DNA of 33,528 bases from Rhodopirellula sp. (lineage in GTDB: Bacteria > Planctomycetota > Planctomycetia > Pirellulales > Pirellulaceae): NCBI GenBank assembly GCA_002701385.1, contig NZVD01000056.1, forward strand, positions 67,305 through 100,832, written 5' to 3'. The notes under the pieces are model-generated. The model was not told the DNA's origin. It saw nothing but the letters and a program-made list of their open reading frames with translations, and did no database searches. Numbering within the stretch: the stretch's first letter is position 1; each line of letters starts with the position of its first letter. Made by a program: the position numbers and the translations under genes. Positions 3,891 through 33,316 of the stretch are shown here, piece by piece.

Positions 3891-3894
3891 GCCA

Positions 3895-5217
3895 ATGATG
3901 AAAAGACACAAACGAGATTGCGGTACTCCGGAGCATAGTATGCACCGACGCCTGTTCCTACAGGGATCCATGGCAGCATCCACCGCCTCTGTCGCAAGCT
4001 TTAATGGCCTCTTTTCCATTCCAGCATTGGCAGAACAGGTACAACAAAAACAAAAAAAGGTCATCCTATTGTGGTTGTGCGGAGCCCCAAGCCAATTCGA
4101 AACATGGGATCCCAAGCCAGGAACTTCGACGGGCGGCCCCTTTGGAGCTATCCAAACTAAACTTCCGGGAGTCATGCTTGGTGAAATGATGCCCAAGACG
4201 GCGTCCCTGTTAGACAAAACCGCCATCATTCGTTCTATGTCCACAGGCCCCGAAGCTCACTTCCAAGGTATCGATTGCCTCACCAGAGGAGATACTCCTC
4301 GCCCTCCATTCACCCGACCTATCCTGGGCTCTGTCATCGCCGAACAACTTGGGCAACTCGACAGCCCCGTACCTCAGTTCGTCCTGCTCGATCCATGCCC
4401 GGAGGGCAACGAATTCAAGAGTTTCAAAGCCGGGAACTGGGCTGGCTGGCTGGGCGCCGAATATGCTCCAGTACGAGGTGGTAAGGGCTATAGCATTCAG
4501 AACACCGCCCTCCCTGACAGCCTCAATGAATTGGCTCATCATGACCGCGAGCAATTACGCCGTTTTCTCAGTAGGAAATTCCTCAACGAAACTCGAAATG
4601 AATCGGCCAAAGGTTATAACACTGTTTTCAATCGTGTAAAAGGGCTAATGAGTGCCGCGGATTTATTTGATCTGGATCGCTTACCCGAAAAAGAGCGGTT
4701 GAGATACGGTCCTGGCGCCTTTGGACAGCATACGCTCATGGCTAGGAATCTGATTGAGAATGGCTCAACTTTTGTCATGGTGGCCAATGGGATGCCTTGG
4801 GATTGCCATGTTCTAAACCACGAAATCTATCAAATGCTCGTACCGGAATTGGACAATGTGTTCTATCAACTGGTCACCGACCTGGAAGACCGTGGCATGC
4901 TGGAAGATACGTTGGTCATAGCCATGGGGGAATTCGGACGTACGCCCTGGCTTAATGCAGCGCGCGGACGCGACCATTACCCCAAAGCCTGGAGCATGAT
5001 CATGGCCGGAGGTGGGATCAAGGGGGGCGTCGTGCATGGTGCAACTGACGAACTGGGGATCGCCGTCAAAGATGGTAAGGTCAATAATCGCAACCTCTTC
5101 GCTACGTTCTTTAGCGTTCTGGGGATTGACCCACACGAACAGTACAATCTGCCAGGCTTGCCAACCTTCCATCGAGTCGAAGATAACGCTGCTCCTATCG
5201 AGGAGGTATTAAGCTAA
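3895..5217 (+). CDS. DUF1501 Tat-exported protein (cassette 1)
   Basis: A 440-residue member of the DUF1501 family, which belongs to the alkaline phosphatase/sulfatase-like fold; activity unproven. A twin-arginine signal is plain: Arg18-Arg19 in MHRRLFLQG, then a small-residue-rich hydrophobic stretch ending PALA, so it should be folded in the cytoplasm and exported by Tat. Family motifs include LWLCGAPSQFETWD just after the signal and MGEFGRTP with GRDHYP near the C-terminus. I chose the ATG at 3895 (followed at once by a second ATG) because an upstream in-frame ATG at 3865 would overlap the preceding gene and misplace the signal. The gene lies 4 nt after the DUF1549 gene, and its TAA overlaps the next ATG (TAATG), pointing to translational coupling. 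Confidence 0.9.
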   Translation: MMKRHKRDCGTPEHSMHRRLFLQGSMAASTASVASFNGLFSIPALAEQVQQKQKKVILLWLCGAPSQFETWDPKPGTSTGGPFGAIQTKLPGVMLGEMMPKTASLLDKTAIIRSMSTGPEAHFQGIDCLTRGDTPRPPFTRPILGSVIAEQLGQLDSPVPQFVLLDPCPEGNEFKSFKAGNWAGWLGAEYAPVRGGKGYSIQNTALPDSLNELAHHDREQLRRFLSRKFLNETRNESAKGYNTVFNRVKGLMSAADLFDLDRLPEKERLRYGPGAFGQHTLMARNLIENGSTFVMVANGMPWDCHVLNHEIYQMLVPELDNVFYQLVTDLEDRGMLEDTLVIAMGEFGRTPWLNAARGRDHYPKAWSMIMAGGGIKGGVVHGATDELGIAVKDGKVNNRNLFATFFSVLGIDPHEQYNLPGLPTFHRVEDNAAPIEEVLS

Positions 5218-6308
5218 TGGCCCCCCTCAACGACGACACTGCCGACGCAACCAAAGTTACACTGAGCGATCAGGCTTTCAAAATCCAACTTCCAACATTG
5301 GTCCTTGGTGCAACTTGTACTAAGGATGGCCAGACGATCTACGCAAGCTGTGTTGATGGCGTATATCGCGTCAACACGGACAACAAGTCCCACGAGAAAC
5401 TTTACTCCCATGACAGCTATGCCAGCGGGGCCGTATACAGTGAACAACACAACCTGCTCATTACAGCAGGCTATGACGGCAACCTCATTTGGTATGATCT
5501 CGCAAAGAAAGAGATCATCCGCAAAATACCCGCTCATAATTTCTGGTCTTGGAAAATGGCGATTTCTTCAAATCATTCGATGATTGCTAGTGTGAGTGGA
5601 CAATATTTGGCCGGAGATTTCGACTATCGACCTAAGCCGGCGGATGAGCCAACTGTAAAGGTCTATGACACTCAAACCGGCCAATGCCTGCACGCTTTTG
5701 ATCACCTACCATCTGTCCAATCCGTTGCATTCTCACATGACGGTAAGCATCTTGCCGCAGGCAATTTAATGGGTGGCATCCGAGTTTGGGATTTAGAGAC
5801 TGGTGAACTTGCCGCTGACTGGACTGACGAAGGCTTTACAAGCTGGGGCATCATTAAAAGCCATTGCTACATTGGCGGCATCTACGGACTGGACTTCACC
5901 CGGGACAACACCGATGTGCTGGCAACCGGCTTTGGTCCAATGCGAGATCCCATGGCGGGCAATGGCAAGCAGTTGTGGCAACGATGGCGTTGGAATCAGG
6001 ATGTGCCCGAAAAAGTGGCTGAAAAGCAACAGGGAAGCGGGCTAATGGAGTCGATCCAAATGCACACCTCTGAAGAATTCTTTGTCATGGCTGGTCGTTT
6101 GCGTGATGGAGATGCAAACATTTCGCTGTTCAGTACTGCTACCAATGAACGAATCGCGCACGCTAAAGTCGGATTCCGAATCACCGAAGCAATTTTCCCT
6201 CACGAAAATGCCAAGCTCATCGTGGTTGGCGGGTCAGGGCAACCACGCAACGCCGACGGCAACTTCCCCAACTGGGGACACATCCATATCTATGAACTAA
6301 CTTTTTAG
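5217..6308 (+). CDS. WD40-repeat protein (cassette 1)
   Basis: A 363-residue predicted beta-propeller. WD40-type repeats are visible through phrases such as VRVWDLETG and VQSVAFSHDGKHLAAG (about 155-200), YDGNLIWYDLAKKEI (about 85-100) and KVYDTQTGQC. No signal peptide or membrane segment is seen (N-terminus MAPLNDDTAD), so it should stay in the cytoplasm although both upstream partners are exported. Its ATG overlaps the stop codon of the DUF1501 gene by one base. The role is probably protein binding or scaffolding; no catalytic motif is apparent. A 409-residue counterpart occupies the same third position in the second cassette at 18470-19699. Confidence 0.87.
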   Translation: MAPLNDDTADATKVTLSDQAFKIQLPTLVLGATCTKDGQTIYASCVDGVYRVNTDNKSHEKLYSHDSYASGAVYSEQHNLLITAGYDGNLIWYDLAKKEIIRKIPAHNFWSWKMAISSNHSMIASVSGQYLAGDFDYRPKPADEPTVKVYDTQTGQCLHAFDHLPSVQSVAFSHDGKHLAAGNLMGGIRVWDLETGELAADWTDEGFTSWGIIKSHCYIGGIYGLDFTRDNTDVLATGFGPMRDPMAGNGKQLWQRWRWNQDVPEKVAEKQQGSGLMESIQMHTSEEFFVMAGRLRDGDANISLFSTATNERIAHAKVGFRITEAIFPHENAKLIVVGGSGQPRNADGNFPNWGHIHIYELTF

Positions 6309-12624: not shown

Positions 12625-15600
12625 TCAGGACGGCAAGTTCAGTTCAAGCTCGTCGGCAGTCTTGAGACCAGACCTGTCTTCAACTGCTTCGCGATCGATC
12701 AGTTCGAGTTCAGTCACAAAGCTGTCTATGGTTCGCTGAATCTCACCGGGCGTGTCATTCCAATTCTCCGGAGCCGCCAGCCTATCTTCATTTTGATCAA
12801 TCGTCCGAAGCCAATCTTCATCACCTTCCATTCGATCATCAACCAGTCCAGGCCAAAACTCACCTTCAGCTTGAGCCTCACCTTCTAGAAAAGCATTTAG
12901 TTCATTAATTACTACAAGTGCATCGAGAGGTGAAAACTGGTTATCCCGGCTAGCGTCCCAAAACGGAGCTTGCATGCCTTGCTCTCGCTCAGTCGGCAGC
13001 GCACCACCTTCTCCCGCATTTAGGCGATTGATCACAGAAAGTGCATCCATTGGAACCAATTGACCATCGTCATTGATATCACCGGGGCTACTTCCGTTAA
13101 ACCAAAGGTAATCGGTGACCATTTCAATCGTGACCTGATGGGCATCCGTTGTCACGGTACCATCGGTTACTTTGTATTCAAAAGAATCGACACGATTAAA
13201 ATTCGTGTTGGGCACATACTCGAACGCTCCACCATCCCGAAGTACCAAAGTGCCGTACTCAGGGGGGGTAACCTGAGTAAACGTCAGCCGATTTACATCC
13301 GGATCGTCGACCAAACTGAACAGATCGCTATCAAACCCTGGATCCAACGTCTGATTATCTCTAAGTTCATAGACTCCATTGGAGGCAATCGGTTCGTCAT
13401 TGACTTGATTAACAACGACTGCGAACTCTTCAATGTAAAACTGATTGTCCTCGAGTGTATCTAAATCCTGATCATACCCAGAGTCCATCAACTGAAGTAC
13501 GATGGAGCTCGAGCCATTGGCGTGCTCTGGAAAACTCAATTCCAGACGTCCTGTCGATGCACTATTATCATGCGTGAGTTCGTAATCCAACAAATCGTCA
13601 TTCGATATAAACACATCTATCATGAATTGCTGAGATTCATCTATTCCCGAACTCAACCCAGTCAGATCCAAAACGACATCACCACTATCCTCGTCCAATT
13701 CGACATCTTCGACCGCTTCTATGGTTGGCGGCATGTCCGTGGGTGCCAAACTCAGATAGTAGTGTCCCATTGAACCGGGCATGGCACCTTCGCCAGTATT
13801 CGGGTCGTAATTAACGTCCCCTTCGTGATAGCCACTCACCCCAAAGTAATACGTCTCACCACCGGTAAATTCGTAGTGCAGAAAACTGCCTAATCCACCA
13901 TAAGGATCATCATCGTTCTGTGCGAGTTCTGCTCCCTGACTATCAAACAATCTCAGGACAGTATCAGCACTCCATGCCTGCGAACTGTCCGTCCAGACCA
14001 TATAGTCTCCGGATTCAGTTGGAGCAAAGCGATATAGGTCGACATCTTCCGCTGTTAATACGAACGTATCGTCGTAGCCAATTTCGGCCGATTGTACATC
14101 TCCGACCGCCAGGTCGAGTATCCCTTGGTGGGTTAGCTTGTCATCAGTGAGCATTTCATAGGCACCAGCATCAAATTGATCCCATTTCATTTGGTAGTAA
14201 CCAGTATCGCCCGGAACAGCATCACCAATTAAGAAAGGGTCGAAGGCTTGGTTCCCCAACCCGCTCACAGCAAAATAAACGGTTTCACCAGCTGTGCTAG
14301 CCAGGTGGATTTTGGAATCCCAACTACCATCCTGTACAAAATCCCAATCACGCTGCGCGATATAGTTTCCGGCCGAATCAAATACCGTAATGACACTATC
14401 CAAATCGTCCTCGTTGTCCTCAAGGACATAGGAATCCACATCAAACTCCAACACGCCGGAGATAGTAGGCGTCACCGAATAGAAATCAATATCTTTCTCG
14501 CTAACTTCAACCCAATCTCCTAACACAGAATCCCAATCAAAATAGATCAGCTCTTCATACCATGTGTTCGCATCGGGCAGTGGCATAGCCTGATTGATAT
14601 TTCCGGTTAAGTCATTGGAGATGAACTCGAATTCAACTTCGTAGAATCCACCATAAGTCGTTCGACGTCCATCAACACTCATGGGGTTATAACTGTGATT
14701 GCGCTGACCCGAAACTCCGAAATAAAGTACTTGACCTTGTTCGAGGTCGGTTCCCATAACAAAGCTATCGAGTGTATGACCATCGAAATACTGGCGATCA
14801 GTGGGATGTTCAAAGACATAGCCCGGATAGTAACCGTCAACAAACTCCAGGGGATTGCCAAATTCATCCACTTGTAAATCGTCGTCACTATAAACCAATT
14901 CATTTCCATCAGCGTCAAATACACGCAGAAAGGAATCGACGTATCCCTCTAAATACGGAGTGTCGATATCAACCAATACTTTACCGTCGTCCGGAACCAC
15001 CAAGCGGAACAAGTCTACATCCTGTGTACCTACATGCGTTCCATAGTCCTGTCCGATCAAGCCCTGAAACGACGTTTCTCCCTGATTGAAGCTCACTTGG
15101 ACAGCTGTATCCAGAAAGCCATTTAAGTCGTCATTCGCCCAGCTAAAAGCGAGTTTATAATGCCCTCGATCGGCCGAAGTCCCCGACCCCGGGTGCAGTG
15201 GTGAATACGTATCGTTCCCTGAACCGCTGACTCCCACGTAATACACGCCAACCGGAAGCGCTGCTTCTAAATGTGAAAAGGTTGTATCGTCATAATTGTC
15301 ATTTGCTGCCAGTGGTGTCCCGTTTGAATCAAAAAGTCTTAGAAGAGTATCAGCGGGTTCGCGATTCCCCCAGGCTTCGGTCTGCAAGATAACAACTCCG
15401 GGTGCGGACAGTTCAAACTTGAACATATCCACGTCGGCATCACCCGATTCAAAGCGTCGGCCATCCTTACCTAAAATCCCTTTCAGCTTCACCGCTTCGG
15501 TCGGATCGTTATCATAGACACTCCATCGCAAAGGTAATACCGGTCCCTGATACGCTCCAGCCAGCGTACTATTTGCGTCGCCACTATTGACCGCGTAGCG

Positions 15601-16737
15601 ATCCTCTCGCTGAGCCGGCGTCTCCACCAATTCTCTAACTGCACTGACGGCCTGATGGATATTGAGTCGAGGGTATTCAGCATTCGTGTAAGCAAATTCA
15701 ACTCCATCCACCGTCGTTATCGAATTTTCATCGTCACCATCATGAATAACATCGGCTGATTCACGGATTAGTTGTTGTACTTCGGACGTCGTTAAATATC
15801 GCCCTCCAAAAGTCATCGCCGCATCCTGCATCAGCGCCACAGCACCAGCAACCATCGGCGAAGCCATGCTTGTTCCTGCTAATTCCTGAAGTTCGTCACC
15901 GGGAACTGAACTGAGAATAAATGCTCCGGGCGCAAAGACTACATTACCTTGATCTGGTGGCCGCTGACTGAAGTGCACGATCCGATCTGACGCCGTAGTG
16001 ACGTCACAAACCTGATCCCCCATACAAATCCCGCCACCTTCATATGATTCCCAAACGGCTCCGACTACTAATGTGCTATAGATACCGGGAGCATTCGCAT
16101 TGCGAATCATTTGGTTCTGCCCGTTACGATCAATTCCGAATTCATTTCCAGCAGCACTAACGACGGTGATCCCCAGTCGCTCCAGATTCAAAATCTCACG
16201 GTAGACATCCTGTGTAACAGCTGCCGCGTCATTCGTATTTGCAAACAACCCTCCACCAAGAGACATATTCACTACTTTAATATTGTTCTCATAGTGATTT
16301 TCACGAACCCATTGCAACGCCTCCAGGATTTCAACCCACGAGGAATACCCATCTGTCTCCGAGAACACTTGTAACGAGATCAGATTGGCCTGAGGGGCAA
16401 CTCCTATATTGGGGTCACTTGCCGCCGCAATTCCAGCTACATGCGTCCCATGATTCGACGTGAAATAATTCCCTTCGTTGGCATAAACTAAATCAACGTT
16501 GGCAATAACTCGGTTCGTCAGCAATTCATGACTGCTGTCGACCCCCGTGTCGATAATGGCGATTCCAATTTCGTCACCATCTATCTCATCGAAATCCGGC
16601 AATCGTCGCATTTCGTAAAGATCTATCAAGTCAAAAGCAAATGAGTGCGGAGCGACACCTGTTAAAACCAATCGCGGCTCTAAAGGCTCCAAAAACAACC
16701 GCTTTTGCAGTCGTCTCCTATTTGATTTCCTGAGCAT
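12625..16737 (-). CDS. Subtilisin-like (S8) serine protease with PPC, cadherin-like and dockerin regions
   Basis: 1370 residues. The N-terminus carries the planctomycete LEPR-XLL export motif (LEPLEPRLVL, about 16-25) after a basic stretch. The S8 catalytic domain spans about 28-370 with a complete triad: Asp63 in IIDTGVD, His96 in NHGTHVAG, Ser290 in GTSMASP, and oxyanion Asn198. Four PPC-like beta domains follow (about 400-1000; each has DVD(L/M)(F/Y) and VGVSG or FGVSG phrases). Next are a cadherin-like region (about 1000-1200; EDSGDVVLDL, FEYKVTDGT) and two dockerin type I calcium loops (GDINDDGQLVPMDALSVINRLN-like and DASRDNQFSPLDALVVINELN-like, about 1215-1290), then an acidic tail. AAGGAGG about 11 nt before the ATG is the best ribosome binding site in the window. 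Likely surface-bound or secreted; substrate unknown. Confidence 0.92.
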   Translation of the reverse strand: MLRKSNRRRLQKRLFLEPLEPRLVLTGVAPHSFAFDLIDLYEMRRLPDFDEIDGDEIGIAIIDTGVDSSHELLTNRVIANVDLVYANEGNYFTSNHGTHVAGIAAASDPNIGVAPQANLISLQVFSETDGYSSWVEILEALQWVRENHYENNIKVVNMSLGGGLFANTNDAAAVTQDVYREILNLERLGITVVSAAGNEFGIDRNGQNQMIRNANAPGIYSTLVVGAVWESYEGGGICMGDQVCDVTTASDRIVHFSQRPPDQGNVVFAPGAFILSSVPGDELQELAGTSMASPMVAGAVALMQDAAMTFGGRYLTTSEVQQLIRESADVIHDGDDENSITTVDGVEFAYTNAEYPRLNIHQAVSAVRELVETPAQREDRYAVNSGDANSTLAGAYQGPVLPLRWSVYDNDPTEAVKLKGILGKDGRRFESGDADVDMFKFELSAPGVVILQTEAWGNREPADTLLRLFDSNGTPLAANDNYDDTTFSHLEAALPVGVYYVGVSGSGNDTYSPLHPGSGTSADRGHYKLAFSWANDDLNGFLDTAVQVSFNQGETSFQGLIGQDYGTHVGTQDVDLFRLVVPDDGKVLVDIDTPYLEGYVDSFLRVFDADGNELVYSDDDLQVDEFGNPLEFVDGYYPGYVFEHPTDRQYFDGHTLDSFVMGTDLEQGQVLYFGVSGQRNHSYNPMSVDGRRTTYGGFYEVEFEFISNDLTGNINQAMPLPDANTWYEELIYFDWDSVLGDWVEVSEKDIDFYSVTPTISGVLEFDVDSYVLEDNEDDLDSVITVFDSAGNYIAQRDWDFVQDGSWDSKIHLASTAGETVYFAVSGLGNQAFDPFLIGDAVPGDTGYYQMKWDQFDAGAYEMLTDDKLTHQGILDLAVGDVQSAEIGYDDTFVLTAEDVDLYRFAPTESGDYMVWTDSSQAWSADTVLRLFDSQGAELAQNDDDPYGGLGSFLHYEFTGGETYYFGVSGYHEGDVNYDPNTGEGAMPGSMGHYYLSLAPTDMPPTIEAVEDVELDEDSGDVVLDLTGLSSGIDESQQFMIDVFISNDDLLDYELTHDNSASTGRLELSFPEHANGSSSIVLQLMDSGYDQDLDTLEDNQFYIEEFAVVVNQVNDEPIASNGVYELRDNQTLDPGFDSDLFSLVDDPDVNRLTFTQVTPPEYGTLVLRDGGAFEYVPNTNFNRVDSFEYKVTDGTVTTDAHQVTIEMVTDYLWFNGSSPGDINDDGQLVPMDALSVINRLNAGEGGALPTEREQGMQAPFWDASRDNQFSPLDALVVINELNAFLEGEAQAEGEFWPGLVDDRMEGDEDWLRTIDQNEDRLAAPENWNDTPGEIQRTIDSFVTELELIDREAVEDRSGLKTADELELNLPS

Positions 16738-18469: not shown

Positions 18470-19699
18470 CTACATTTCATAGACTCGCAAGCTGCCATCG
18501 CTACAGGCGATGACAAACCTCCGGCCGTCTTCGGTAAAATCAATTCCGCGAACCGGCTTATTTACTTCCACTACGTGGAATGGTTTAATCTCGCGTGGTT
18601 TCTTTTCTTCAACCGGTTCTTCTGGGGCTGCATGGTCATCACAACCGGCTGCTTCCTCTTTGGGAGCCGCTGATTCCGACGCTTCCTCGTCGGCAAGTGA
18701 CCAGAACTCTACCGTCCCCTTACCATTTTGATTTCCCATTGCCCCAACAACGAATCCTTCAGGATGAAACCGCACACCCCAGGCCACGCCAGCCGAATTG
18801 CTTTTTGTGCGTAAATGACTGCTAATTTCCTTGGTCGCCCAATCGACAACGCAGATAATTGGATCCTGTTGGCCCGCAAATGAATTAACAACATTAGTTA
18901 TCCCAGCACAACCGAGCAGGCTTCCGTCGGCGTTAAAGGCCATATCCCGAGCACCGCCCATATCAGCTTGAAACTTGTTATCAAAGCCTGTCATGACGGA
19001 CTTCAACTCACGCGTACGCTGCCCTGTCTTCGCATTCCAGACAAAGATTTCGCCCATGAGGTCTTCTGACACCAGACTCTCGCCATCGGGGTGAATCATG
19101 ACCGCATAGGGATGTCGACCGTGACCGACAAACTCTTTCTTTAACTTCCAACGCCGAGCATCCCAAAGCTTAATAATCTTATCGTTACCACAGGTGGCAA
19201 TATATTTTCCATTCGGGCCGGCATGTACCCATCGCGAAAATCCCCGATGGGCTTCTACAATACGAACTGGCTTGTCGACTACCAATTCCACTTTGGGTTC
19301 GACTGGCTCTGAATCGTCTTCTGACTCAGTTTGTTCCACGGGCAATTCGACTGCCTGAATCGTTTCAGGCTGCACATCCCAAACGACTACCCGACCATCC
19401 CAACCAGACGTAAGTACTTGCTTACCGTCACTGGAAAAATCTATGCGACGGACCCAACTATCATGAGCCCCCCGATAAACAACTTTTTCACCGGTTTCAA
19501 TTTCCCACCGGTAGACACCAAAATCCTCAGCTCCGGCAAAAACGTACTTCCCCGAAGGATCTAGGCGACAGTTGGTCAGAGCCTCACCGTGGGTAAACTG
19601 CTTTAGTTCTTTGGCCTTTTTGGGATCCGGCTTGCCTGAATTTTCGGGCATCGGCACGACTTCGTCCATTTCAGGTGTCTGCGTCTCGTCGAATCTCAT
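18470..19699 (-). CDS. WD40-repeat protein (cassette 2)
   Basis: A 409-residue predicted propeller with WD40 repeats marked by GRVVVWDVQ, DKIIKLWDARRW and GEIFVWNAKTGQ and ending DGSLRVYEM. Two low-complexity acidic insertions interrupt the blades: about residues 117-140 (Glu/Ser/Asp) and about 343-378 (Ala/Glu/Pro, with a lone GCDDH). No signal peptide is visible. It is the third gene of the second DUF1549/DUF1501/WD40 unit, and its ATG overlaps the preceding TGA by 4 nt (ATGA), a classic coupling arrangement. Compared with the 363-residue cassette 1 protein it has a longer N-terminus and the acidic insertions. No enzyme motif is seen. Confidence 0.87.
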   Translation of the reverse strand: MRFDETQTPEMDEVVPMPENSGKPDPKKAKELKQFTHGEALTNCRLDPSGKYVFAGAEDFGVYRWEIETGEKVVYRGAHDSWVRRIDFSSDGKQVLTSGWDGRVVVWDVQPETIQAVELPVEQTESEDDSEPVEPKVELVVDKPVRIVEAHRGFSRWVHAGPNGKYIATCGNDKIIKLWDARRWKLKKEFVGHGRHPYAVMIHPDGESLVSEDLMGEIFVWNAKTGQRTRELKSVMTGFDNKFQADMGGARDMAFNADGSLLGCAGITNVVNSFAGQQDPIICVVDWATKEISSHLRTKSNSAGVAWGVRFHPEGFVVGAMGNQNGKGTVEFWSLADEEASESAAPKEEAAGCDDHAAPEEPVEEKKPREIKPFHVVEVNKPVRGIDFTEDGRRFVIACSDGSLRVYEM

Positions 19700-20964
19700 G
19701 TCAACAACTCCTTAATCGGAGCGGCCACCGGGTCGCCAATCGGCACAGAACGGCCATCCAACGCATGGTCAGATTGAGAATCTATCCCCACTGCCTGCAT
19801 ATAAGTATGGAAAAGGTGAGCCCCATCGACTTCTCGATCCGAGACCTCCGTACCATCCGCATTCGTAGCACCTACAACGCCACCTGGTTGTATGCCACAG
19901 CCTCCGAGTGCGATGGAGAACGATTTTCCCCAATGATCCCGACCATATTTATGATTCACTTTCGGCGTCCGCCCGAATTCCGAGTAAATAATCACCAATA
20001 CATTATCGAGCATTCCGCGGTCTTCAATGTCACCGAGCAACGTAGCGAATGTCTTGTCGAATTCGTCTAACTGTTCCACGTGAAAATTAAAATTCTCCGC
20101 ATGGGTGTCGTATCCATGATGCGTCACTTTAACACAGGTAACGCCTTGTTCGAGCAAAGTTCGAGCCAACAGGCATCTACGACCAAACCAATGGCGGCCA
20201 TATCGATCCAATTCCTTCTCGTCTTGCTTCTCAAACAAATCAGATCGAGCCATAAGTTGTTGAGCCTGTTCAAAGGACGTGTCGTAAGAATCGATCAACG
20301 CTCGGCTACGCTTACCACCAAACTGTTGATTCAGTTGTTGCCTTAAGCCTTCAGCCCGTATCGCCAGGGACTTAGAAAGATCCTTCGGACGCTCCAGATT
20401 CGTCGGGGGCTTCACTCCTTCCAGACGCATCATTTCATGCTTAGATTCAAGAAAGCCAGCCGTTTGATCCACGATTCCTCTGGTTGTAATATGCACATAA
20501 CCCGGAAGCGGATTATCTGCAGCTGTGAGGTACTTCGAAGCGACAGCGCCCACAAACGGATAGTCACCATTCTTACGCCCCTTTTCCATAAAGAGCCGCC
20601 CCACAGTGTGGTCATCGGTTTGTAGATTGATACTCCGCACCACGCTTAACAGGTGCATTTTCTGAGCGGTGTAAGGAAGCAGCTCACAAATCTGAACACC
20701 GGGCACACTGGTCGAAATCGGGCGAAACGGTCCACCATATTTCGTACCAGGCTTACAATCCCATGATTCAAACTGACTCACGCCCCCTTGCAAGTAAACC
20801 TGCAGAATTTGCTTTTGACCCGACTTCATTTCTTTAGCCATGGAAGGAGTCAGTAGACCGCCAAAACCGGCCATAGCGCCTGCCATCGCGCCAGTCCCCA
20901 TGAAGTGACGGCGTGTTACATGATGGTCAACAGCATTGCATCCGGCATTACGTCGCTTAGTCAT
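19696..20964 (-). CDS. DUF1501 Tat-exported protein (cassette 2)
   Basis: A 422-residue DUF1501 protein. I placed the start at the ATG whose first base is 20964, preceded by GGAAAAGAG, because it gives a proper Tat leader: Arg18-Arg19 in VTRRHFMG followed by an Ala/Gly-rich hydrophobic stretch ending SMA. A longer in-frame start at 21051 would overlap the DUF1549 gene. The twin arginines and Cys9 occupy the same positions as in the cassette 1 paralog at 3895-5217. Conserved motifs include YLQGGVSQFESWDCKPG, YSEFGRTPKV and GRDHWG. Activity is unproven; the fold is related to alkaline phosphatase/sulfatases. It lies 34 bp after the DUF1549 gene and overlaps the WD40 gene by 4 nt. Confidence 0.9.
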   Translation of the reverse strand: MTKRRNAGCNAVDHHVTRRHFMGTGAMAGAMAGFGGLLTPSMAKEMKSGQKQILQVYLQGGVSQFESWDCKPGTKYGGPFRPISTSVPGVQICELLPYTAQKMHLLSVVRSINLQTDDHTVGRLFMEKGRKNGDYPFVGAVASKYLTAADNPLPGYVHITTRGIVDQTAGFLESKHEMMRLEGVKPPTNLERPKDLSKSLAIRAEGLRQQLNQQFGGKRSRALIDSYDTSFEQAQQLMARSDLFEKQDEKELDRYGRHWFGRRCLLARTLLEQGVTCVKVTHHGYDTHAENFNFHVEQLDEFDKTFATLLGDIEDRGMLDNVLVIIYSEFGRTPKVNHKYGRDHWGKSFSIALGGCGIQPGGVVGATNADGTEVSDREVDGAHLFHTYMQAVGIDSQSDHALDGRSVPIGDPVAAPIKELLT

Positions 20965-20998
20965 CTCTTTTCCTTCTCCAAAAATGGATCGAACCCCA

Positions 20999-22675
20999 TT
21001 ATTTATTAAATCGGAATTCGGCGCTACAGAGTAAAGTACGAACCAGTTCACGAATCACTTCTTCGCGAGCCTCTTCACTTTGCTCGATAAATGCAGTGGC
21101 AATTCCGATCTCCGCCTCATTGGGCAACCGCGAATAAATCGCTAAATAAGCCGAATTCACCACCTCTGCATTATGATCTGATTTCAATAAGTCATCCAAT
21201 AAATATTGCTTACCTGTTGCCAGCCACGACGATACTTCCGGTCCGTTGAGCAAATACAAAGCATGATTTGCAGAAGCATCAAAGCGTGAAGCTGCATTAC
21301 TTGCTGCAAAAACGCCCACCACTTTATCCACACTGGGCTTCAATGCGGCGTGAACCTTTTCTTCGATCAATCTGGCAGCTTCTGGACTTGATAAATCTAA
21401 GGACTCGTTTTCCTTCGTCACTGCTGAGATAGCAACCGTACGAGATTGTTCAACCACTCCCACTGCCTGCATCAATGACCATGCAAATTGCTCTGGACTG
21501 AGAGGCTTGGCAGAAGAATTCAAGTAGAGTGGCCGCTCCTCTGCGTCTGCAACGTCTACGAATTCGGACTCTCGTTGATAGGCCTGTGTCATGACCAGCT
21601 CTTTGATCAAATACTTCAGATCATATCGTTGCTGCATGAAATCATCGGCGAGCAATTCCAACAACTCAGGATGGGATGGTGGATTGCCAAGATGAAACAT
21701 ATCCAGTGGTTCGACAAATCCTTGCCCCATGAGCATCGCCCAAATCCGATTGACGATATTTTGCCGAAAGGCGGTGTTGCCGGCATCGACCATGGCAGGA
21801 GCGAGTTGCAGCCTTCGCGTGTACTTAGGAATGCCTCGATTATTAGTATCCGGTTTTACCTCATACGGCTCTTCAGCAGGCTCCGGATCCACAATCTCTG
21901 CCAACTCTAATATCCGTGGTTGAGTCTGAGATTCCTCACCGGTAAATACCGAGGTGAATTTCACATCACCTTCCACCTTATCTCCGATAGACACGACCTT
22001 GGATTTCGGATCGGTAAACAGATAACTTCGTTGTAAAAATGCAGCCACTCCGAAATAATGCTGCTGCAAATAATCATCGACGTTTGGATGGTTGTGGCAC
22101 TGGGCACACTGCAAATCTCTACCTAAGAAGATTCGTCCGATCGCACGAACCGATTCTTCCCGCTTGATTTCACGATCCAGTAAAAACCTGCTGGCAGGAC
22201 GCAACTCAGGCTTGGAACCATCTGCTCCGAGGATTTCAGAAACCAGGGCATCGTACGGTTTATTGGACGAGAATGCGGTGCGCAAATACCCTTGAAAGTC
22301 TTCTGGTGCCACGTGTTTCTTAGGCAAGCGTTCCATGAACATCACATCAAACACATACTGCATGTGCCTAGCATATTCTGGAGTGTTCAACAATTGATCG
22401 ACTAAGACCTCTCGCTTATTCGCCTGTTCGTTCTCAACAAATGACGATAACTGTGTTGGCGAGGGAATCCTGCCTGTCAAATCCAAATAGACTCGGCGAG
22501 CAAAACCATAATCATCAATTACAGATGCTGACCGGTCTGCCAAGTCACCTTGTGCCTGCCTCAAAGAGTCGTCGATAATGTCATGAAGTGATTGTTCCTG
22601 AGCACTGAGAGTAGAGCAGGGCAATAATGCCCCCCACAGGAAACAAATCAAACCGGGGATGTAAATGTAACGCAT
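20999..22675 (-). CDS. DUF1549/DUF1553 secreted protein with CxxCH motif (cassette 2)
   Basis: A 558-residue paralog of the protein at 2316-3890. A signal peptide covers about 1-25 (ending STLSA). The DUF1549 part (about 28-230) holds the c-haem-type CAQCH at 190-194 followed by NHP. The DUF1553 part (about 280-558) carries NRIWAMLMGQGFVEPLD and HPPS-like HLGNPPSHPELLELL, and it ends in SAEFRFNK, nearly the same ending as its paralog (SAEFRFNH). It lacks a separate PSCyt1 cytochrome domain. It heads the second cassette and is divergent from the zinc-ribbon membrane protein gene, with a compact promoter region between them. Confidence 0.88.
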   Translation of the reverse strand: MRYIYIPGLICFLWGALLPCSTLSAQEQSLHDIIDDSLRQAQGDLADRSASVIDDYGFARRVYLDLTGRIPSPTQLSSFVENEQANKREVLVDQLLNTPEYARHMQYVFDVMFMERLPKKHVAPEDFQGYLRTAFSSNKPYDALVSEILGADGSKPELRPASRFLLDREIKREESVRAIGRIFLGRDLQCAQCHNHPNVDDYLQQHYFGVAAFLQRSYLFTDPKSKVVSIGDKVEGDVKFTSVFTGEESQTQPRILELAEIVDPEPAEEPYEVKPDTNNRGIPKYTRRLQLAPAMVDAGNTAFRQNIVNRIWAMLMGQGFVEPLDMFHLGNPPSHPELLELLADDFMQQRYDLKYLIKELVMTQAYQRESEFVDVADAEERPLYLNSSAKPLSPEQFAWSLMQAVGVVEQSRTVAISAVTKENESLDLSSPEAARLIEEKVHAALKPSVDKVVGVFAASNAASRFDASANHALYLLNGPEVSSWLATGKQYLLDDLLKSDHNAEVVNSAYLAIYSRLPNEAEIGIATAFIEQSEEAREEVIRELVRTLLCSAEFRFNK

Positions 22676-22695
22676 CTATCTATTATATATAGGTG

Positions 22696-22708
22696 GCGGA
22701 TAATCCGC
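22696..22708. promoter_or_regulatory. 13-bp palindrome in the divergent promoter region
   Basis: The sequence GCGGATAATCCGC is a perfect palindrome around a single central base and sits next to an AT-rich TATTATATATA run (22681-22691). It lies between the start of the cassette 2 DUF1549 gene and the membrane protein gene, a good place for a shared operator. Confidence 0.4.
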
Positions 22709-22740
22709 ATTATCAAAACAACTCAGGAGCCCCCCCAGAG

Positions 22741-23802
22741 ATGGCAGACTCGTTTGAATATACCTGTAGTCAATGTAGAGAATCACTAACGCTTCCTTTG
22801 TCACTTATGGGCCAACAGGGAGAGTGCCCAACATGTCATCATGTGGAAACCCTCTCCGATGCAAGTTACGAAGCCTTGCCAACTCCGGAGCCTGTGACGA
22901 CTCATTCAAACCACAGTCCGTTCGGTGGTGGTGCTCCCGTGGTGGCTGCTAATGTCCCGGGGACAGAGAATCCGTATGCTACACCGGCTGAAGATGCCTT
23001 TCAATTTGGATCTGTCAATCCCGATCATCGGGTGCGTTTATCACTTACGTTATGGGGAACCATGGCTGCATACACACTTGCAACCATCTGGGCAATCATA
23101 GCAATCGTCGCTCCCATGGTTAGCATCTTTACTGAAAATCCTGAGCGGTTTGAAGGCTTAAGTGATGACGAGCAAGCTTTCGAGTTTATGATTGCACTTG
23201 CTGAAAGCACGACAGACTTTGTTCGCGAGGATCTTAAAGATGTACCTAAGGACAAATGGGAAGAAAGACTTGGCTTGACTATTCTGACTGGTATGGGCAC
23301 GTTGCTCATAGGCCCTCTCGTGCTGTTTCTCTGTGGGACAGTTGCGTATTTGATCTTCTTCTATACATTATGGCATCAAATACAAGACTCTCCCGAGGTT
23401 GGCTTTAGTCCGACCGCCATCGTCCTGCTTCAGCTTGCTCCGCTGGCTGTCATACTCTTTGGCAGTCTCCTCGGTTCAATCAGCCCTCTCTTGCCTGTCT
23501 TCATTTCGTTCATGGGGGCCATTATCCACGGGGTGGTGATGTTCATCTCTTACTGGAAGCTTGCTGAATACATGGAGAGGTATTGTAGGCAACAGGGGAT
23601 CCGAGCTCGGCAATGTTCTCCGGGGCTGGCACTATCCATGTGCATTTGTCACGTGGTTGGAGCCATCCCACTTATTGGCCTGGGCGGTCTGGTCAATCTA
23701 GTTGGTTTGATCATTTGGTTTCCTGTCGTCTTTGGGCTAAAGAATTGTGCCACGGACATCATCAACCACAAAATGGCGATCGAGCAACAACAGCAAGGGT
23801 AA
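22741..23802 (+). CDS. Zinc-ribbon multipass membrane protein of unknown function
   Basis: A 353-residue protein from the ATG at 22741. The N-terminus carries a small zinc ribbon with Cys9, Cys12, Cys29 and Cys32 (CSQC...CPTC), followed by a loop rich in Pro, Gly and His (about 40-95). Hydrophobic segments then occur at about 104-130, 181-211, 226-273 (two helices) and 295-332 (probably two), with an acidic soluble stretch at about 133-178. This resembles planctomycete zinc-ribbon membrane proteins usually left as hypothetical. A GTG at 22693 would add 16 residues, but it would lie over the palindrome and the AT-rich promoter-like run, so I prefer 22741, which has AGGAG upstream. Function unknown. 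Confidence 0.75.
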   Translation: MADSFEYTCSQCRESLTLPLSLMGQQGECPTCHHVETLSDASYEALPTPEPVTTHSNHSPFGGGAPVVAANVPGTENPYATPAEDAFQFGSVNPDHRVRLSLTLWGTMAAYTLATIWAIIAIVAPMVSIFTENPERFEGLSDDEQAFEFMIALAESTTDFVREDLKDVPKDKWEERLGLTILTGMGTLLIGPLVLFLCGTVAYLIFFYTLWHQIQDSPEVGFSPTAIVLLQLAPLAVILFGSLLGSISPLLPVFISFMGAIIHGVVMFISYWKLAEYMERYCRQQGIRARQCSPGLALSMCICHVVGAIPLIGLGGLVNLVGLIIWFPVVFGLKNCATDIINHKMAIEQQQQG

Positions 23803-25983: not shown

Positions 25984-28900
25984 TTAGTTTTGCCGCAAGG
26001 CTTTCAAATATTGCGTTGCAATCTTCTGTTCACTTTCGTGAATTTCCCCATCAACTTCAGACAACTGCGTAATGAATTGCGTCAATTGGACAACCACATC
26101 TTTACTAAATGTATTTGGCAGGCTCTTAATGACTTCCTCAACAATCTCTTCAAGACCCGATTCTTTAATCCGGTCGAGTGCCGAATCGGCTGCCTGACGA
26201 ACCTGTTTTCGGTTAGCCAAAGGTGTGTTGGCAATGATAAATTCTACAATGGAATCGAATTCCTCTGATTTAATCTCACCGTCGGCTGAAACCAGACTGA
26301 TCAAAGTCAGCATCAATATTTGATGCTGACTCGACAAAGACATCTCTTCCGGCTCTGGAAGTTTATCAGCCTGCTCCTTAGACGCCGTCGCTCCATCCAC
26401 AACTCCCCCGCCTAATGCATCTCGGAACTTGGCAATCATCGCCTCTTCAGCGCTTGTAATTTCCCCATCCGCTTCAGCCGTGCGATTCATAACAGTTATC
26501 AACGCACTGGCTTCTTCACTACCACTAAGACTCTCAAGACGCTTGCTGATTTCAATCACAGCCTGTTGCAATCCGACCTCGGAAATCCAAGCACTTATCT
26601 TTTTCCGGAGATCTTTGAGCTGCTTCCGATCACTGACCCCAGTAAGTGAAGACGCATTTTTATAAAAACGCTTAAATTCGTCGTTGGAAACTTTATTATC
26701 TTCGCAAAGCAGGCAGAACAAGGCTGCCATAAGCAACTCGGCAGAACTCGTTGTAGCCAGAAAACCATCATCTAGATCAGGTTGCTGCGTAGTTTCAGTT
26801 TCCCGATTCAACAAGGCATTGACGTCAACCACCTGGCCTTCCTGCTGATGATCCAGCTGAAAGAAACCAGCAGGTTCCATTCCCATCAATCGTGCCAGCA
26901 AAACATCCGGAAACGTTCGAATCCTAATATTGTGAGTTCCTGTTACAGCGTTGAACCCTGAACGTGCAAACTGCAACTGGTTTTCCACCTCAACAATTCT
27001 ATTCCCCAGATCCATAACAAGCTTATCCGTCCTAATCGAAGGATAAGCTTCAAGCAACACCTTAAACCGGTCAAGCAAGCCTCCCACTCGATCGGTCGTC
27101 GCGGCATCACCTGTTATCCCATGACGCAAGTGCGCTATGCTTGTCTGAACATCTTTCTCAAACGACAAGGCTGTTTTCATGACCTTTACCAGATTAGGAA
27201 TTAGATCTGCTCGTCGCTTTAAGGACACATTGAGATTCGCCCTAGCTCTGGAGAGCCAAGCCTTCATGAATATCAGATCATTGAAGATAAATGCAACATT
27301 GAGCACCAGTAGGAACAGGACCGCAAACAAAGCACCTGCAAAATACCCAAAGGGATCAAACGATGCTCCTCCGTAAAGAATAAATACTGCGCTAGCACAG
27401 GATGCTATCCCAATTCCCAGATAAGTAAGGCCGGTTCGGGCATACTTCAACAATACGGATTTTTCGTCCTGGTCACTAATGACAAAATGTCTTTCCTTAG
27501 AACTATGCTCTATCGTAAGCGTAGTATCATGAAGAGAATCTAAAACTGCCGGCCCCAAAATATAAAGCTGCTGCCCCGGTTTCAAAGTCCATTCGCTATA
27601 TCGCAAATTACCGGTGCGTTCGTAATAAGTTCGGGAAGCATCGACCTCGGCTTTTTTGGCATTCACTACGATTTGGCCGGTCTCGTCTTTGAGGAAGAAA
27701 TCTGCCAATGCAACTCCAGACTCAACTGTCTCCCACCTATATTTATCTTTATCTGTTTTGACTCGCCGTTCTTTGAGATAACGACAATAAACCACCGAAA
27801 CTCCACTGTATCTGGCAGAAACAAGTTTATCCTTTTTGAGGATCGTTCCCTCTACCTCCGTAAGCCCCGGAACCACTCCTTTAACTGGTGACGTGGGAAT
27901 ATTCTCAATCATTCTCTTTGTTCCTAGCTTTCGGTATCCCATAAAGCCACATAGCAAAGTCCCTACAGTCCCAGCAATAGTTAAATAGAAAACATAATCC
28001 ATCTGAAGTATGGAATCTGTACGTTTCCGTTGCGGGAAGGCAGTAAGTAGCGATTGTTCATCCGAAGCCAGTTCTAATCCATCTATCGGATCATAGCCTC
28101 CCAATAGCCTATGCAACATATTTGTCGGGCGGGTCCTATAGGCTTCGTAAAGCTCCAACGCCACATTCGTATCCCGTTTCAAAAGTGCCAGACGCGGGTT
28201 TTCGCCTTGCTGCATCTCGGGCAAACTATCTACTACCTGCTTGTAGCGTTGTACTCGTTTAAAGCCGGCGTCCAATTGCGAATTCGTGACAAACATCCAC
28301 TGCAAAAACAATGCGGGAGGCAGGGTTACGAATAGTGCCAAAGAAGCCATCATGATTTGGTGTTGACCTAGCAGGTCAAACAACAATCCAACAAAGAACA
28401 CAAACAGAAAAATGGCCCCCACCATCCAGAACATACTGCTCCAACCAAGCGTGCGGAGAATGGCATCTTCGCCCCGGGTAGAAATTGTGAATTCAGTGGC
28501 TAAAGCGCTGTCCGTGCTAGAAATCTGGTTTTGATCGCTATGATAACCTCCTACGACTGTCACTTTGTCGCGACTCAGGATTGCATACTCGGTCTCACGA
28601 TATCTCCCATATCTGCGATAGCCTGTCCTTTTCACTAAACGTTCCGGCTGTCCTCTACCATTCTCTACGGAGATTTCCCCGGAGGAATCAACAACCCGAA
28701 AATCGACAGCCTTAGTTCTGGAATCGACGGTTGTCCACGATTTGTCGCCGTCTGAATCCTCTACTTCCTTCTCTTTTGTCCAGTCAAAATAAACGCATGG
28801 TTGGCCATTAATCCTAGTCCGCAAGGTGGCATCATCATGTCGAACATTTCCCTCGACCATCGCCAGGCCGTCAATCAATCCCGCGTTATAGGCTAGAGGC

Positions 28901-29058
28901 GTTCTCTGCAATTCCAAAACAGATTGCATTCCGGACATACTGCAACCACGGAATCCTATCGCTAAAAATAGAAACAAAACGCAGCATATTGCATTGAGAG
29001 CAAACGCTGTTTGCTTTTTGCTTTCGGTATTTGCTCGAAACAACATATGTGAAATCAT
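25984..29058 (-). CDS. GIDE-GIDE-LemA-TerB-TerB multidomain membrane protein
   Basis: 1024 residues, apparently intact. Order by inspection: TM helix about 18-36; GIDE-like domain 1 about 60-200 (GLAMVEGNV, AVDFRVVDSSGEISV, ILSRDKVTVVGG); TM about 206-230 and 236-257; a helical soluble stretch 260-345; TM 355-375; GIDE-like domain 2 about 395-510 (GLTEVEGTILKKDKLVSARYSGV, DFFLKDETGQIVV, LKPGQQLYILG); TM about 545-563 and 570-593; LemA domain about 597-735 (VSLKRRADLIPNLVKVM, LLEAYPSIRT, VENQLQFARSGFN); two TerB-like helical domains at 772-885 and 908-1024. The TerB part holds four related acidic loops near 786, 863, 925 and 1002. GIDE is the bacterial relative of MUL1/MULAN ligase ectodomains; no RING is present. 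GAGGAA precedes the ATG closely; Met5 is an alternative start. Function unknown, perhaps envelope stress sensing. Confidence 0.85.
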   Translation of the reverse strand: MISHMLFRANTESKKQTAFALNAICCVLFLFLAIGFRGCSMSGMQSVLELQRTPLAYNAGLIDGLAMVEGNVRHDDATLRTRINGQPCVYFDWTKEKEVEDSDGDKSWTTVDSRTKAVDFRVVDSSGEISVENGRGQPERLVKRTGYRRYGRYRETEYAILSRDKVTVVGGYHSDQNQISSTDSALATEFTISTRGEDAILRTLGWSSMFWMVGAIFLFVFFVGLLFDLLGQHQIMMASLALFVTLPPALFLQWMFVTNSQLDAGFKRVQRYKQVVDSLPEMQQGENPRLALLKRDTNVALELYEAYRTRPTNMLHRLLGGYDPIDGLELASDEQSLLTAFPQRKRTDSILQMDYVFYLTIAGTVGTLLCGFMGYRKLGTKRMIENIPTSPVKGVVPGLTEVEGTILKKDKLVSARYSGVSVVYCRYLKERRVKTDKDKYRWETVESGVALADFFLKDETGQIVVNAKKAEVDASRTYYERTGNLRYSEWTLKPGQQLYILGPAVLDSLHDTTLTIEHSSKERHFVISDQDEKSVLLKYARTGLTYLGIGIASCASAVFILYGGASFDPFGYFAGALFAVLFLLVLNVAFIFNDLIFMKAWLSRARANLNVSLKRRADLIPNLVKVMKTALSFEKDVQTSIAHLRHGITGDAATTDRVGGLLDRFKVLLEAYPSIRTDKLVMDLGNRIVEVENQLQFARSGFNAVTGTHNIRIRTFPDVLLARLMGMEPAGFFQLDHQQEGQVVDVNALLNRETETTQQPDLDDGFLATTSSAELLMAALFCLLCEDNKVSNDEFKRFYKNASSLTGVSDRKQLKDLRKKISAWISEVGLQQAVIEISKRLESLSGSEEASALITVMNRTAEADGEITSAEEAMIAKFRDALGGGVVDGATASKEQADKLPEPEEMSLSSQHQILMLTLISLVSADGEIKSEEFDSIVEFIIANTPLANRKQVRQAADSALDRIKESGLEEIVEEVIKSLPNTFSKDVVVQLTQFITQLSEVDGEIHESEQKIATQYLKALRQN

Positions 29059-29117
29059 TTCCTCGCTTGAACTGTCAGGCTTCCGCAGGTCCGACTAAAT
29101 AAGTGATACCAAAAACG

Positions 29118-29150
29118 AATAAAAAGGGCGCCCCAATTTCGAGGCACCCC
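29118..29150 (-). terminator. Rho-independent terminator-like hairpin upstream of the GIDE-LemA-TerB gene
   Basis: Read on the minus strand, GGGTGCCTC (from 29149) pairs with GGGGCGCCC (to 29126) around a 6-nt GAAATT loop, with two G-U pairs, and is followed by TTTTTATT. The plus-strand reading would have C-A mismatches, so the minus strand is favoured. It sits 60-90 nt before the minus-strand ATG at 29058 with no minus-strand gene upstream, so it may be a leader attenuator or stop transcription entering from the right. Confidence 0.6.
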
Positions 29151-32450: not shown

Positions 32451-32538
32451 AAATACACACTCGAGTACGGTCCTGGCAAACCCAAATCAGGGTGATTGCC
32501 CGCTTTCGCCGCTTGAGACAATGGAGTAATTCGTGGCC

Positions 32539-32563
32539 GTTTTGTGCGCACGAAGCACAAAAC
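32539..32563 (+). promoter_or_regulatory. Perfect 9-bp hairpin in the tatA leader
   Basis: GTTTTGTGC (32539-32547) pairs with GCACAAAAC (32555-32563) around a 7-nt loop GCACGAA. It lies inside the predicted leader, 50 nt before the tatA start. No T-run follows, so it is more likely a translation or stability element than a terminator. Confidence 0.45.
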
Positions 32564-32613
32564 TAAACCAGCTCGAATTAAAGCAATCTATTATTTACGC
32601 GAGGGCGAATCCT

Positions 32614-32832
32614 ATGACCACTTCTTTATTTGCCATTGGCATGCCTGGACTTCCGGAAATGCTTATCATCGGCGGTATCTTTATCCTTTTCTTCGGTGCC
32701 AACAAACTTCCCGGTCTTGCGAAAAGTATCGGCAAGAGTGCCAATGAATTTAAAAAGGGACTCAAAGACGATACCCCAATTGACCCGACCGACGATGATG
32801 ACGATGTCGTAGACGAAGATAGCGAACTGTAA
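32614..32832 (+). CDS. tatA: Sec-independent translocase subunit TatA
   Basis: A 72-residue TatA/TatE-type protein. The short N-terminal hydrophobic helix (about 11-26) with GLPEML and the FFG hinge, then the amphipathic helix (NKLPGLAKSIGKSANEFKKGL) and a very acidic tail (DDDDDVVDED) are all typical. It forms the membrane channel of the Tat pathway that exports folded proteins. I chose the ATG at 32614, preceded by GAGGG at about 9 nt, over an upstream in-frame ATG at 32533 that would add 27 residues lying on the leader hairpin. A second TatA/B-like gene follows after 85 bp; tatC is not in the window. The two DUF1501 proteins here carry Tat signals. Confidence 0.93.
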   Translation: MTTSLFAIGMPGLPEMLIIGGIFILFFGANKLPGLAKSIGKSANEFKKGLKDDTPIDPTDDDDDVVDEDSEL

Positions 32833-32847
32833 TTACAGTCCCCCCCA

Positions 32848-32872
32848 ACCACAGTCGTTAGCGATCTGTGGT
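32848..32872 (+). terminator. Hairpin between the two tat genes
   Basis: ACCACAG (32848-32854) pairs with CTGTGGT (32866-32872); inside, TCG pairs with CGA past one bulged T, leaving a TTAG loop. The sequence after it (GTCCATCTTCTTTACTC) is pyrimidine-rich but lacks a clean T-run, so partial termination or an RNA processing site between the genes is more likely than full termination. Confidence 0.5.
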
Positions 32873-32917
32873 GTCCATCTTCTTTACTCTTTCTGTTTGA
32901 CAGATACGACTGCCATC

Positions 32918-33316
32918 ATGAATGAACTCATATTAAATATTGCTGAATCCAGCTACACACCTCTGGCCCTGATCTTCGGAGGCATGGGGATGATGGAGGT
33001 CATGGTAATTGCCCTGATCGCCGTAATGCTGTTTGGCAAGAACCTCCCCGGAGTTGCTCGCAAGTTCGGAAAAACCTATCGTGAGTTCCGTAAAGGGCTC
33101 AGCGAATTTCAAAGCTCGGTCAAAATGGACGAGTATGTCAATGACGTCTCGAACGACTACTACAACGACCCATCGTCGAGTAGCTCTTCAGCATCTGGCG
33201 CGGACGACTGGTCGGCAGACGACTATGACGACTTTGAAGCTCCGGACGTTCCGATGTTTGAACCTCCTCCGTCCGAACCAACGGTAGCTGTCGAAACTCC
33301 CGAAGAAGCAGACTGA
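32918..33316 (+). CDS. Second TatA/TatB-like translocase subunit with acidic Ser-rich tail
   Basis: A 132-residue protein. The N-terminal hydrophobic helix is preceded by a longer lead than in TatA (FGGMGMMEVMVIALIAVMLFGKNLPGVARK spans about 20-50), with the FG hinge, and is followed by an amphipathic helix (KFGKTYREFRKGLSEF). The C-terminal half is disordered and rich in Asp, Ser, Tyr and Pro (a run of six Ser, then DDWSADDYDDFE). Length and the second part of the helix leave open whether it acts as TatA or TatB. I prefer the ATG at 32918; a TTG at 32897 is in frame but unsupported. No Shine-Dalgarno is seen. It probably shares the tat promoter, with the hairpin at 32848-32872 adjusting its level. 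Confidence 0.88.
   Translation: MNELILNIAESSYTPLALIFGGMGMMEVMVIALIAVMLFGKNLPGVARKFGKTYREFRKGLSEFQSSVKMDEYVNDVSNDYYNDPSSSSSSASGADDWSADDYDDFEAPDVPMFEPPPSEPTVAVETPEEAD

Follow-up and report, generated by a model that had tools for sequence, protein, structure and literature searches.

What protein is made when GIDE, LemA and TerB domains are joined in a single chain, and what might it do at the membrane? This question is raised by a minus-strand open reading frame (ORF) in a 33,528-nucleotide (nt) stretch of DNA from the marine planctomycete Rhodopirellula sp. (contig NZVD01000056.1; hereafter the window), which spans positions 25984–29058 and encodes 1024 amino acids (aa) plus a stop codon in one complete frame. 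The chain consists of a unit of transmembrane (TM) helix, GIDE domain, two TM helices and LemA domain that occurs twice, with the first LemA eroded, followed by two TerB domains. This architecture is well supported, and so is its origin from a complete TM-GIDE-TM-TM-LemA protein that was duplicated in tandem.

Domain content and origin of the chain

When scanned as separate pieces, all five domains exceed the curated Pfam cut-offs: GIDE1 and GIDE2 score 31.0 and 55.9 bits (PF12483, cut-off 23.6), LemA (residues 607–746) scores 106.6 bits (PF04011, cut-off 26.2), and TerB1 and TerB2 score 36.7 and 29.1 bits (PF05099, cut-off 24.4). An initial annotation of this DNA, made from the letters and a list of ORFs, had proposed just this set of two GIDE, one LemA and two TerB domains in one chain, and the profile searches agree with it. 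The four acidic helix-loop units that it regarded as typical of TerB do belong to TerB, but they amount to two domains with two motifs each. The only PDB sequence match for the whole protein is that of LemA to 2etd (phmmer E = 8.3e-15). Pfam was also run on the entire 1024-aa protein (E-value of 10), where no RING is found among the five families listed, nor a peptidase domain; a reading as a ubiquitin ligase was rejected on this absence of a RING. The missing RING had already been pointed out and is not a special feature, as PMC4457424 states that none of its prokaryotic BAM sequences carried one.

The two halves of the chain were compared in a joint alignment of 16 chains with two GIDE domains, two of which are incomplete in the second half; all hhalign E-values refer to a single comparison. 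Residues 1–354 and 355–762 are homologous over 335 columns (99.95% probability, E = 1.5e-38). GIDE1 and GIDE2 by themselves align with 99.9% probability (E = 3.5e-33), and the TM2–TM3 region aligns with TM5–TM6. The loop between TM3 and TM4, which the initial annotation did not read as LemA, aligns with the end of LemA in the same double chains (E = 8.2e-5) and, as residues 257–354, with a set of 58 stand-alone LemA proteins (E = 3.5e-6, probability 87.6, score 40.1). Against this score of 40.1, column shuffles of the loop reach at most 22.6 (0 of 200 attain it), the reversed loop reaches 10 and two helical controls reach 8.5–14. Segment 257–354 returns no Pfam family at an E-value of 10 and stays below the cut-off of the LemA profile. 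On the strength of the half-to-half and loop-to-LemA alignments, the chain reads as a repeated TM-GIDE-TM-TM-LemA unit. In a tree of GIDE domains, all 16 rows of GIDE1 fall to the same side of a single branch (99/93), which suggests that the duplication probably happened once; the GIDE2 rows do not form a single group, and the root of this tree is a midpoint only.

Predicted topology and fold

Six TM helices are predicted (residues 18–36, 212–230, 235–253, 356–374, 543–561 and 574–592), and both GIDE domains adjoin them. A seventh hydrophobic window (766–784) falls inside TerB1; this window, flagged in four double and two single chains, was set aside as a TerB helix, as it is in the AlphaFold2 model. 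All 13 double chains examined are predicted to have six TM helices, and all 6 single GIDE-LemA chains to have three. Since each unit has three helices, an odd number, the two copies would face opposite ways. The lysine and arginine residues beside the helices are distributed in the same sense, with 119 on the presumed inner side versus 40 on the outer side and agreement in 12 of the 13 double chains. The likely topology is thus two-faced, with GIDE1 and the eroded LemA predicted outside and GIDE2, LemA and TerB predicted inside. Of the two ectodomain-like blocks described initially, the relationship to one another holds, while only GIDE1 is predicted to lie outside. Inverted-topology duplications are well known in transporters. 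In the open-licence literature searched, no report of one was found for a GIDE-LemA protein.

Insertions in related chains fit this predicted topology. In a Verrucomicrobiales double chain (L087, 1501–4224), the stretch between GIDE1 and TM2 contains an inserted PDZ domain, on the presumed outer side. On the presumed inner side, L174, L175, L176 and L178 have N-termini that resemble zinc fingers (by eye or as Pfam matches below cut-off), and L085 has a CxxC pair, noted by eye, at its C-terminus. An arrangement in which the two GIDE domains of the same chain share a side of the membrane, with one TM segment not spanning, is quite unlikely. It would suit the very short TM2–TM3 link, the low hydrophobicity of TM3 and TM4 (1.81 and 1.64, the least of the six), the charges of one chain (L179) and the outer placement of the single BAM domain of human MAPL (PMC4457424), but it is opposed by the six helices in all 13 chains, by the charge bias in 12 of them and by the PDZ domain that L087 carries in its GIDE1 segment.

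The structure predicted by AlphaFold2 from 16 sequences (mean predicted local distance difference test (pLDDT) score of 77, predicted template modelling score of 0.55) contains the expected elements: two beta domains (residues 64–193 and 398–528), a LemA helical bundle and two TerB bundles of six helices each. When GIDE2 is modelled alone, the pLDDT rises to 86.7. Structural comparison of this model gives a best Z score of 8.9 (root-mean-square deviation of 5.2 over 88 residues), with the listed rows judged to be oligonucleotide/oligosaccharide-binding (OB) folds by title, and Foldseek gives a best E-value of 0.014, with no match at 0.001. As judged from this predicted model, GIDE is likely to be an OB-like domain. 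A fold search with the whole chain gives no match at an E-value of 0.001; LemA is matched to 2etd with a probability of 1.00 and an E-value of 0.036. The match of TerB1 to 2h5n (Z = 9.2) was not used, as unrelated helical bundles can reach this value.

Distribution, selection and gene context

The double chain is present in eight of nine genomes of the genus; the ninth (G005, 89% complete) shows none. The five-domain order is read in one frame in five of the nine, the window genome included (among the other four, domains were placed by alignment and local hidden Markov models (HMMs) in three and also by Pfam in one), and in two frames in G002, while G003 and G007 have a 905-aa form with one TerB region. 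A shorter GIDE-LemA-TerB paralogue of about 600 aa occurs in seven of the nine genomes (twice as a fragment) and is absent from the window genome, in which the 1024-aa protein accounts for every GIDE and every TerB match.

Beyond the genus, the whole N-terminal half was matched among 392 Planctomycetota genomes in the window's own genome only. Another Planctomycetota record, L086, also has two GIDE domains, with GIDE2 separated from LemA by a stop. The double chain is also found in at least 8 of 337 Verrucomicrobiota genomes (the phylum of L087, its own genome included; E-value threshold of 1e-45), seven times whole and once, in G676, in two pieces at contig ends. L085 is a further case from this phylum, and L096, titled Polynucleobacter, is nearly identical to the Verrucomicrobia rows and looks misbinned. 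The simple fusion is widespread: GIDE and LemA share one match in at least 24 of the 392 Planctomycetota genomes (three of the 24 with internal stops), and one-frame fusions also occur in records from Verrucomicrobiota, Gemmatimonadota and Chloroflexota. The premise of the initial annotation that GIDE and LemA are known as separate or neighbouring genes is incomplete in view of this distribution. Adjoining genes do exist, as in the Myxococcota records L116 and L148, where a LemA gene neighbours that of a GIDE protein. In these GIDE proteins (L148:1738–3831 and L116:1831–3819), an EF-hand-like insert, below the Pfam cut-off, is seen near the end of GIDE. As far as the open-licence literature searched shows, the inverted duplication of the whole protein together with TerB is a new variant; the available part of PMC12527936 contains nothing on bacterial GIDE.

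Selection on the gene was estimated from the ratio of nonsynonymous to synonymous substitution rates (dN/dS). The window gene gives overall values of 0.17 and 0.16 against its two nearest relatives (L003 and L004), which give 0.14 against each other; against L006, synonymous sites are saturated. Per domain, the values are 0.04–0.28, including the eroded LemA, and only two short linkers beside TerB1 are higher (relaxed). Every domain is under purifying selection. That the chain is a functionless product of chance fusion or of assembly is extremely improbable, and this reading was rejected. The two frames of the G002 gene and the stop in L086 would suit it, but the order is conserved in other genomes of the genus, GIDE-GIDE-LemA recurs in another phylum and selection acts on every domain. 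The one-frame order in five of the nine genomes likewise argues against the assembly error that the initial annotation had named as a possible source of the joined ORF.

Among GIDE-LemA chains, TerB was found in the genus only. By Pfam, none of the 17 such chains scanned from outside the genus (L011 and 16 others) contains it, and a local TerB HMM, built from the same genus sequences in which TerB is found, matches all genus chains and no other row. By Pfam, TerB is not uniform within the genus either, with L009 and L084 scoring 24.1 and 22.0 bits (cut-off 24.4), L030 not listed and the G003 chain without a TerB match in the genome scan. The link to tellurite and phage response made in the initial annotation finds no support here. 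The window genome has no TerB outside the 1024-aa protein and no TerD (other ter families were not searched), its TerC is also present in 9 of 14 control genomes, and the protein matches no PADLOC-DB family at an E-value of 1. It is accordingly very unlikely that the protein belongs to a Ter-type tellurite, phage or stress response in which TerB joins a Ter complex, and this reading was rejected on those grounds; the lack of TerB in the chains scanned from outside the genus also speaks against it. In its favor are the two TerB domains above cut-off. G003, of the same genus, has two further TerB frames outside such chains, of 217 and 393 aa and separated by about 4 kb (G003:C76:18374–22757). 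As a separate observation, the stand-alone LemA gene and the TerC gene of the window genome (L002 and L207) lie about 2 kb apart (G000:C23:33474–36921).

In the window, the gene stands alone between a divergent MR/MLE gene (from 29227) and a convergent pfkB gene (to 25964), and these two genes flank the one-frame five-domain gene wherever the sequence read extends that far. By eye, no conserved operon partner is seen in the regions of nine relatives, whose neighbours were not scanned by profile; this fits a self-contained protein. A promoter-like element, TGGTAT[CT][AT]AT, is exact in six of seven upstream regions (L003, L004, L006, L007, L009 and L029), that of the window gene being the seventh, with one mismatch, and ends 46–92 nt upstream of the start codon used. 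Because the L009 copy has this element at another locus, the element may have moved with the gene. A leader terminator at 29125–29150 was rejected: the hairpin is not kept in aligned relatives, and 4 terminator-like sites compare with 3.4 in shuffles.

Table 1. Positions in the window of the 1024-aa gene, its parts and its upstream element.
Feature	Position	Strand	Evidence
Complete ORF, 1024 aa + stop	25984..29058	-	dN/dS 0.14–0.17 among window gene, L003 and L004
TM1 (residues 18–36), N-terminus inside (predicted)	28951..29007	-	TM prediction, charges
GIDE1 (residues ~50–205), outside (predicted)	28444..28911	-	Pfam 31.0 bits; hhalign to GIDE2
TM2 + TM3 (residues 212–253)	28300..28425	-	TM prediction; aligns with TM5–TM6
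TM3–TM4 loop, eroded LemA remnant (residues 257–354), outside (predicted)	27997..28290	-	hhalign
TM4 (residues 356–374), then 4 K/R	27937..27993	-	TM prediction
GIDE2 (residues 376–541), inside (predicted), OB-like in model	27436..27933	-	Pfam 55.9 bits; pLDDT 86.7
TM5 + TM6 hairpin (residues 543–592)	27283..27432	-	TM prediction
LemA (residues 607–746), inside (predicted)	26821..27240	-	Pfam 106.6 bits; phmmer to 2etd
TerB1 (residues ~765–885)	26404..26766	-	Pfam 36.7 bits; boundaries by local HMM
TerB2 (residues ~904–1024)	25987..26349	-	Pfam 29.1 bits; absent from 905-aa form in G003 and G007
Promoter-like TGGTATCACT, one mismatch to relatives' element	29102..29111	-	position counted by eye

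Elsewhere in the window, two consecutive TatA-like genes are located at 32533–33316 (the first matches TatA_B_E, the second was judged by eye), and a 369-aa protein without a Pfam match at an E-value of 0.001 is encoded at 22693–23802. By eye, this protein begins with what looks like a zinc ribbon and contains several hydrophobic stretches. The regions 2316–6308 and 18470–22675 each contain a DUF1549/DUF1553 gene, a DUF1501 gene and a WD40-like gene, and a 1370-aa subtilase with PPC, cadherin-like and dockerin domains is encoded at 12625–16737.

Possible role and comparison with known systems

A clue to function comes from four Verrucomicrobiota double chains that end in a module of about 205–245 aa. 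This module also ends other proteins, at nine further places in seven of nine genomes searched, and 6 of the 6 such proteins scanned are M48 peptidases by Pfam; in G430 and G431, the M48 gene bearing the module directly follows a LemA gene. Sub-cut-off Pfam matches to TerB in three of these six proteins (E = 0.0034–0.019) only hint at a similarity between the module and TerB. Their identity is not supported, as the hhalign comparison is weak and the Pfam TerB matches fall below cut-off.

From the computed domain content, duplication, LemA erosion and selection, together with the predicted topology and fold, we infer the sensing, signal passage and partners of the protein as follows. GIDE1, a membrane-proximal beta (OB-like) domain, would sense conditions in the periplasm or outer leaflet, the bundle of six helices would pass the signal to GIDE2 and LemA, and LemA and TerB would dock cytoplasmic partners of membrane-protein quality control, the best candidates for these partners being M48 membrane peptidases. 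Taken as a whole, this explanation, a single-gene inner-membrane hub that arose by tandem GIDE-LemA duplication, with the first copy inverted and GIDE1 sensing, may well be right, though it falls somewhat short of probable. The role itself, as a sensor of membrane quality control or its hub, is put forward about as tentatively. In its most specific form, a relay in which the outer GIDE1 reads the periplasm and the inner GIDE-LemA-TerB part controls quality-control proteases, it is unlikely to hold in every part. If true, this relay would reveal the ancestral function of the GIDE/BAM domain, which in eukaryotes became attached to a RING. Both GIDE and LemA are here united in a single chain under selection, a class of partner is indicated by the module that M48 peptidases also carry, and the inverted duplication makes for a clear test, namely the face on which each GIDE lies.

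When compared with stand-alone LemA, subsets of the loop align more weakly than the joint set, with an E-value of 2.8e-4 for nine Verrucomicrobiota loops plus L086 and 0.0098 for the six genus loops alone, so the case for the eroded LemA depends on the joint alignment and on that of the two halves. Several observations weigh against the hub explanation. The charges of L179 (4 inside versus 8 outside) run contrary to the positive-inside trend. The M48 link is drawn from the Verrucomicrobiota chains, the window genome has no copy of the M48-type C-terminal module, its only M48 match is on another contig, and the module compares with TerB at hhalign probabilities of just 0.6 and 4%.

The main rival of the quality-control role keeps the same anatomy and makes the protein a MamQ-like organiser or bender of membranes, which gathers proteins at sites of invagination or vesicle formation without sensing, a role proposed for MamQ in the formation of the magnetosome membrane. 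According to PMC4902198, no LemA member other than MamQ has been tied to a process, and MamQ may act as a hub of the cytoplasmic membrane before its invagination; MamQ is also the only NCBIfam match of the 1024-aa protein, at a score far below cut-off. It has been mooted, as a hypothesis, that mitochondrial vesicles, where MAPL acts, are linked to bacterial outer-membrane vesicles (PMC4457424). However, the Pfam scan lists no curvature-type domain, and the PDZ and peptidase-type modules of the relatives suit proteolysis or docking at least equally, which leaves the organiser a possible but rather unlikely account. The idea of a sensor or scaffold in the initial annotation may hold; its domain content, order and missing RING are right, whereas its statement on separate or neighbouring genes is incomplete and the two ectodomains and the tellurite/phage link are not supported.

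The protein shares single features with several known systems. Its two TerB domains (PF05099) are fused to a membrane chain, in a genome without TerD. The M48 peptidases with the helical C-terminal module, two of them beside LemA genes, have this module in common with the four Verrucomicrobiota double chains, whereas the 1024-aa protein has TerB in its place and no peptidase domain. MamQ of magnetosomes has a LemA domain in common with it and, according to PMC4902198, may be a membrane hub. Against the MamQ equivalog NF040966, the protein scores 54.9 bits, short of the cut-off of 250. To our knowledge, MamQ has neither GIDE nor TerB. In MAPL/MULAN/MUL1, the GIDE/BAM domain also lies beside the membrane, and the predicted outer position of GIDE1 is on the side reported for human MAPL, whose BAM domain is located in the intermembrane space, where Omi/HtrA2 cleaves it (PMC4457424). 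MAPL is a BAM-RING protein according to the same paper, whereas the 1024-aa protein lacks the RING and has LemA, TerB and a second, inner GIDE. Single GIDE-LemA fusions of bacteria are often of about 450–480 aa. These have one copy with three TM helices, no outer GIDE or eroded LemA and, in those scanned from outside the genus, no TerB, which the double chain of the genus has; the TM-GIDE-TM-TM-LemA unit is common to both, and the GIDE2-LemA half aligns with these fusions over its full length.

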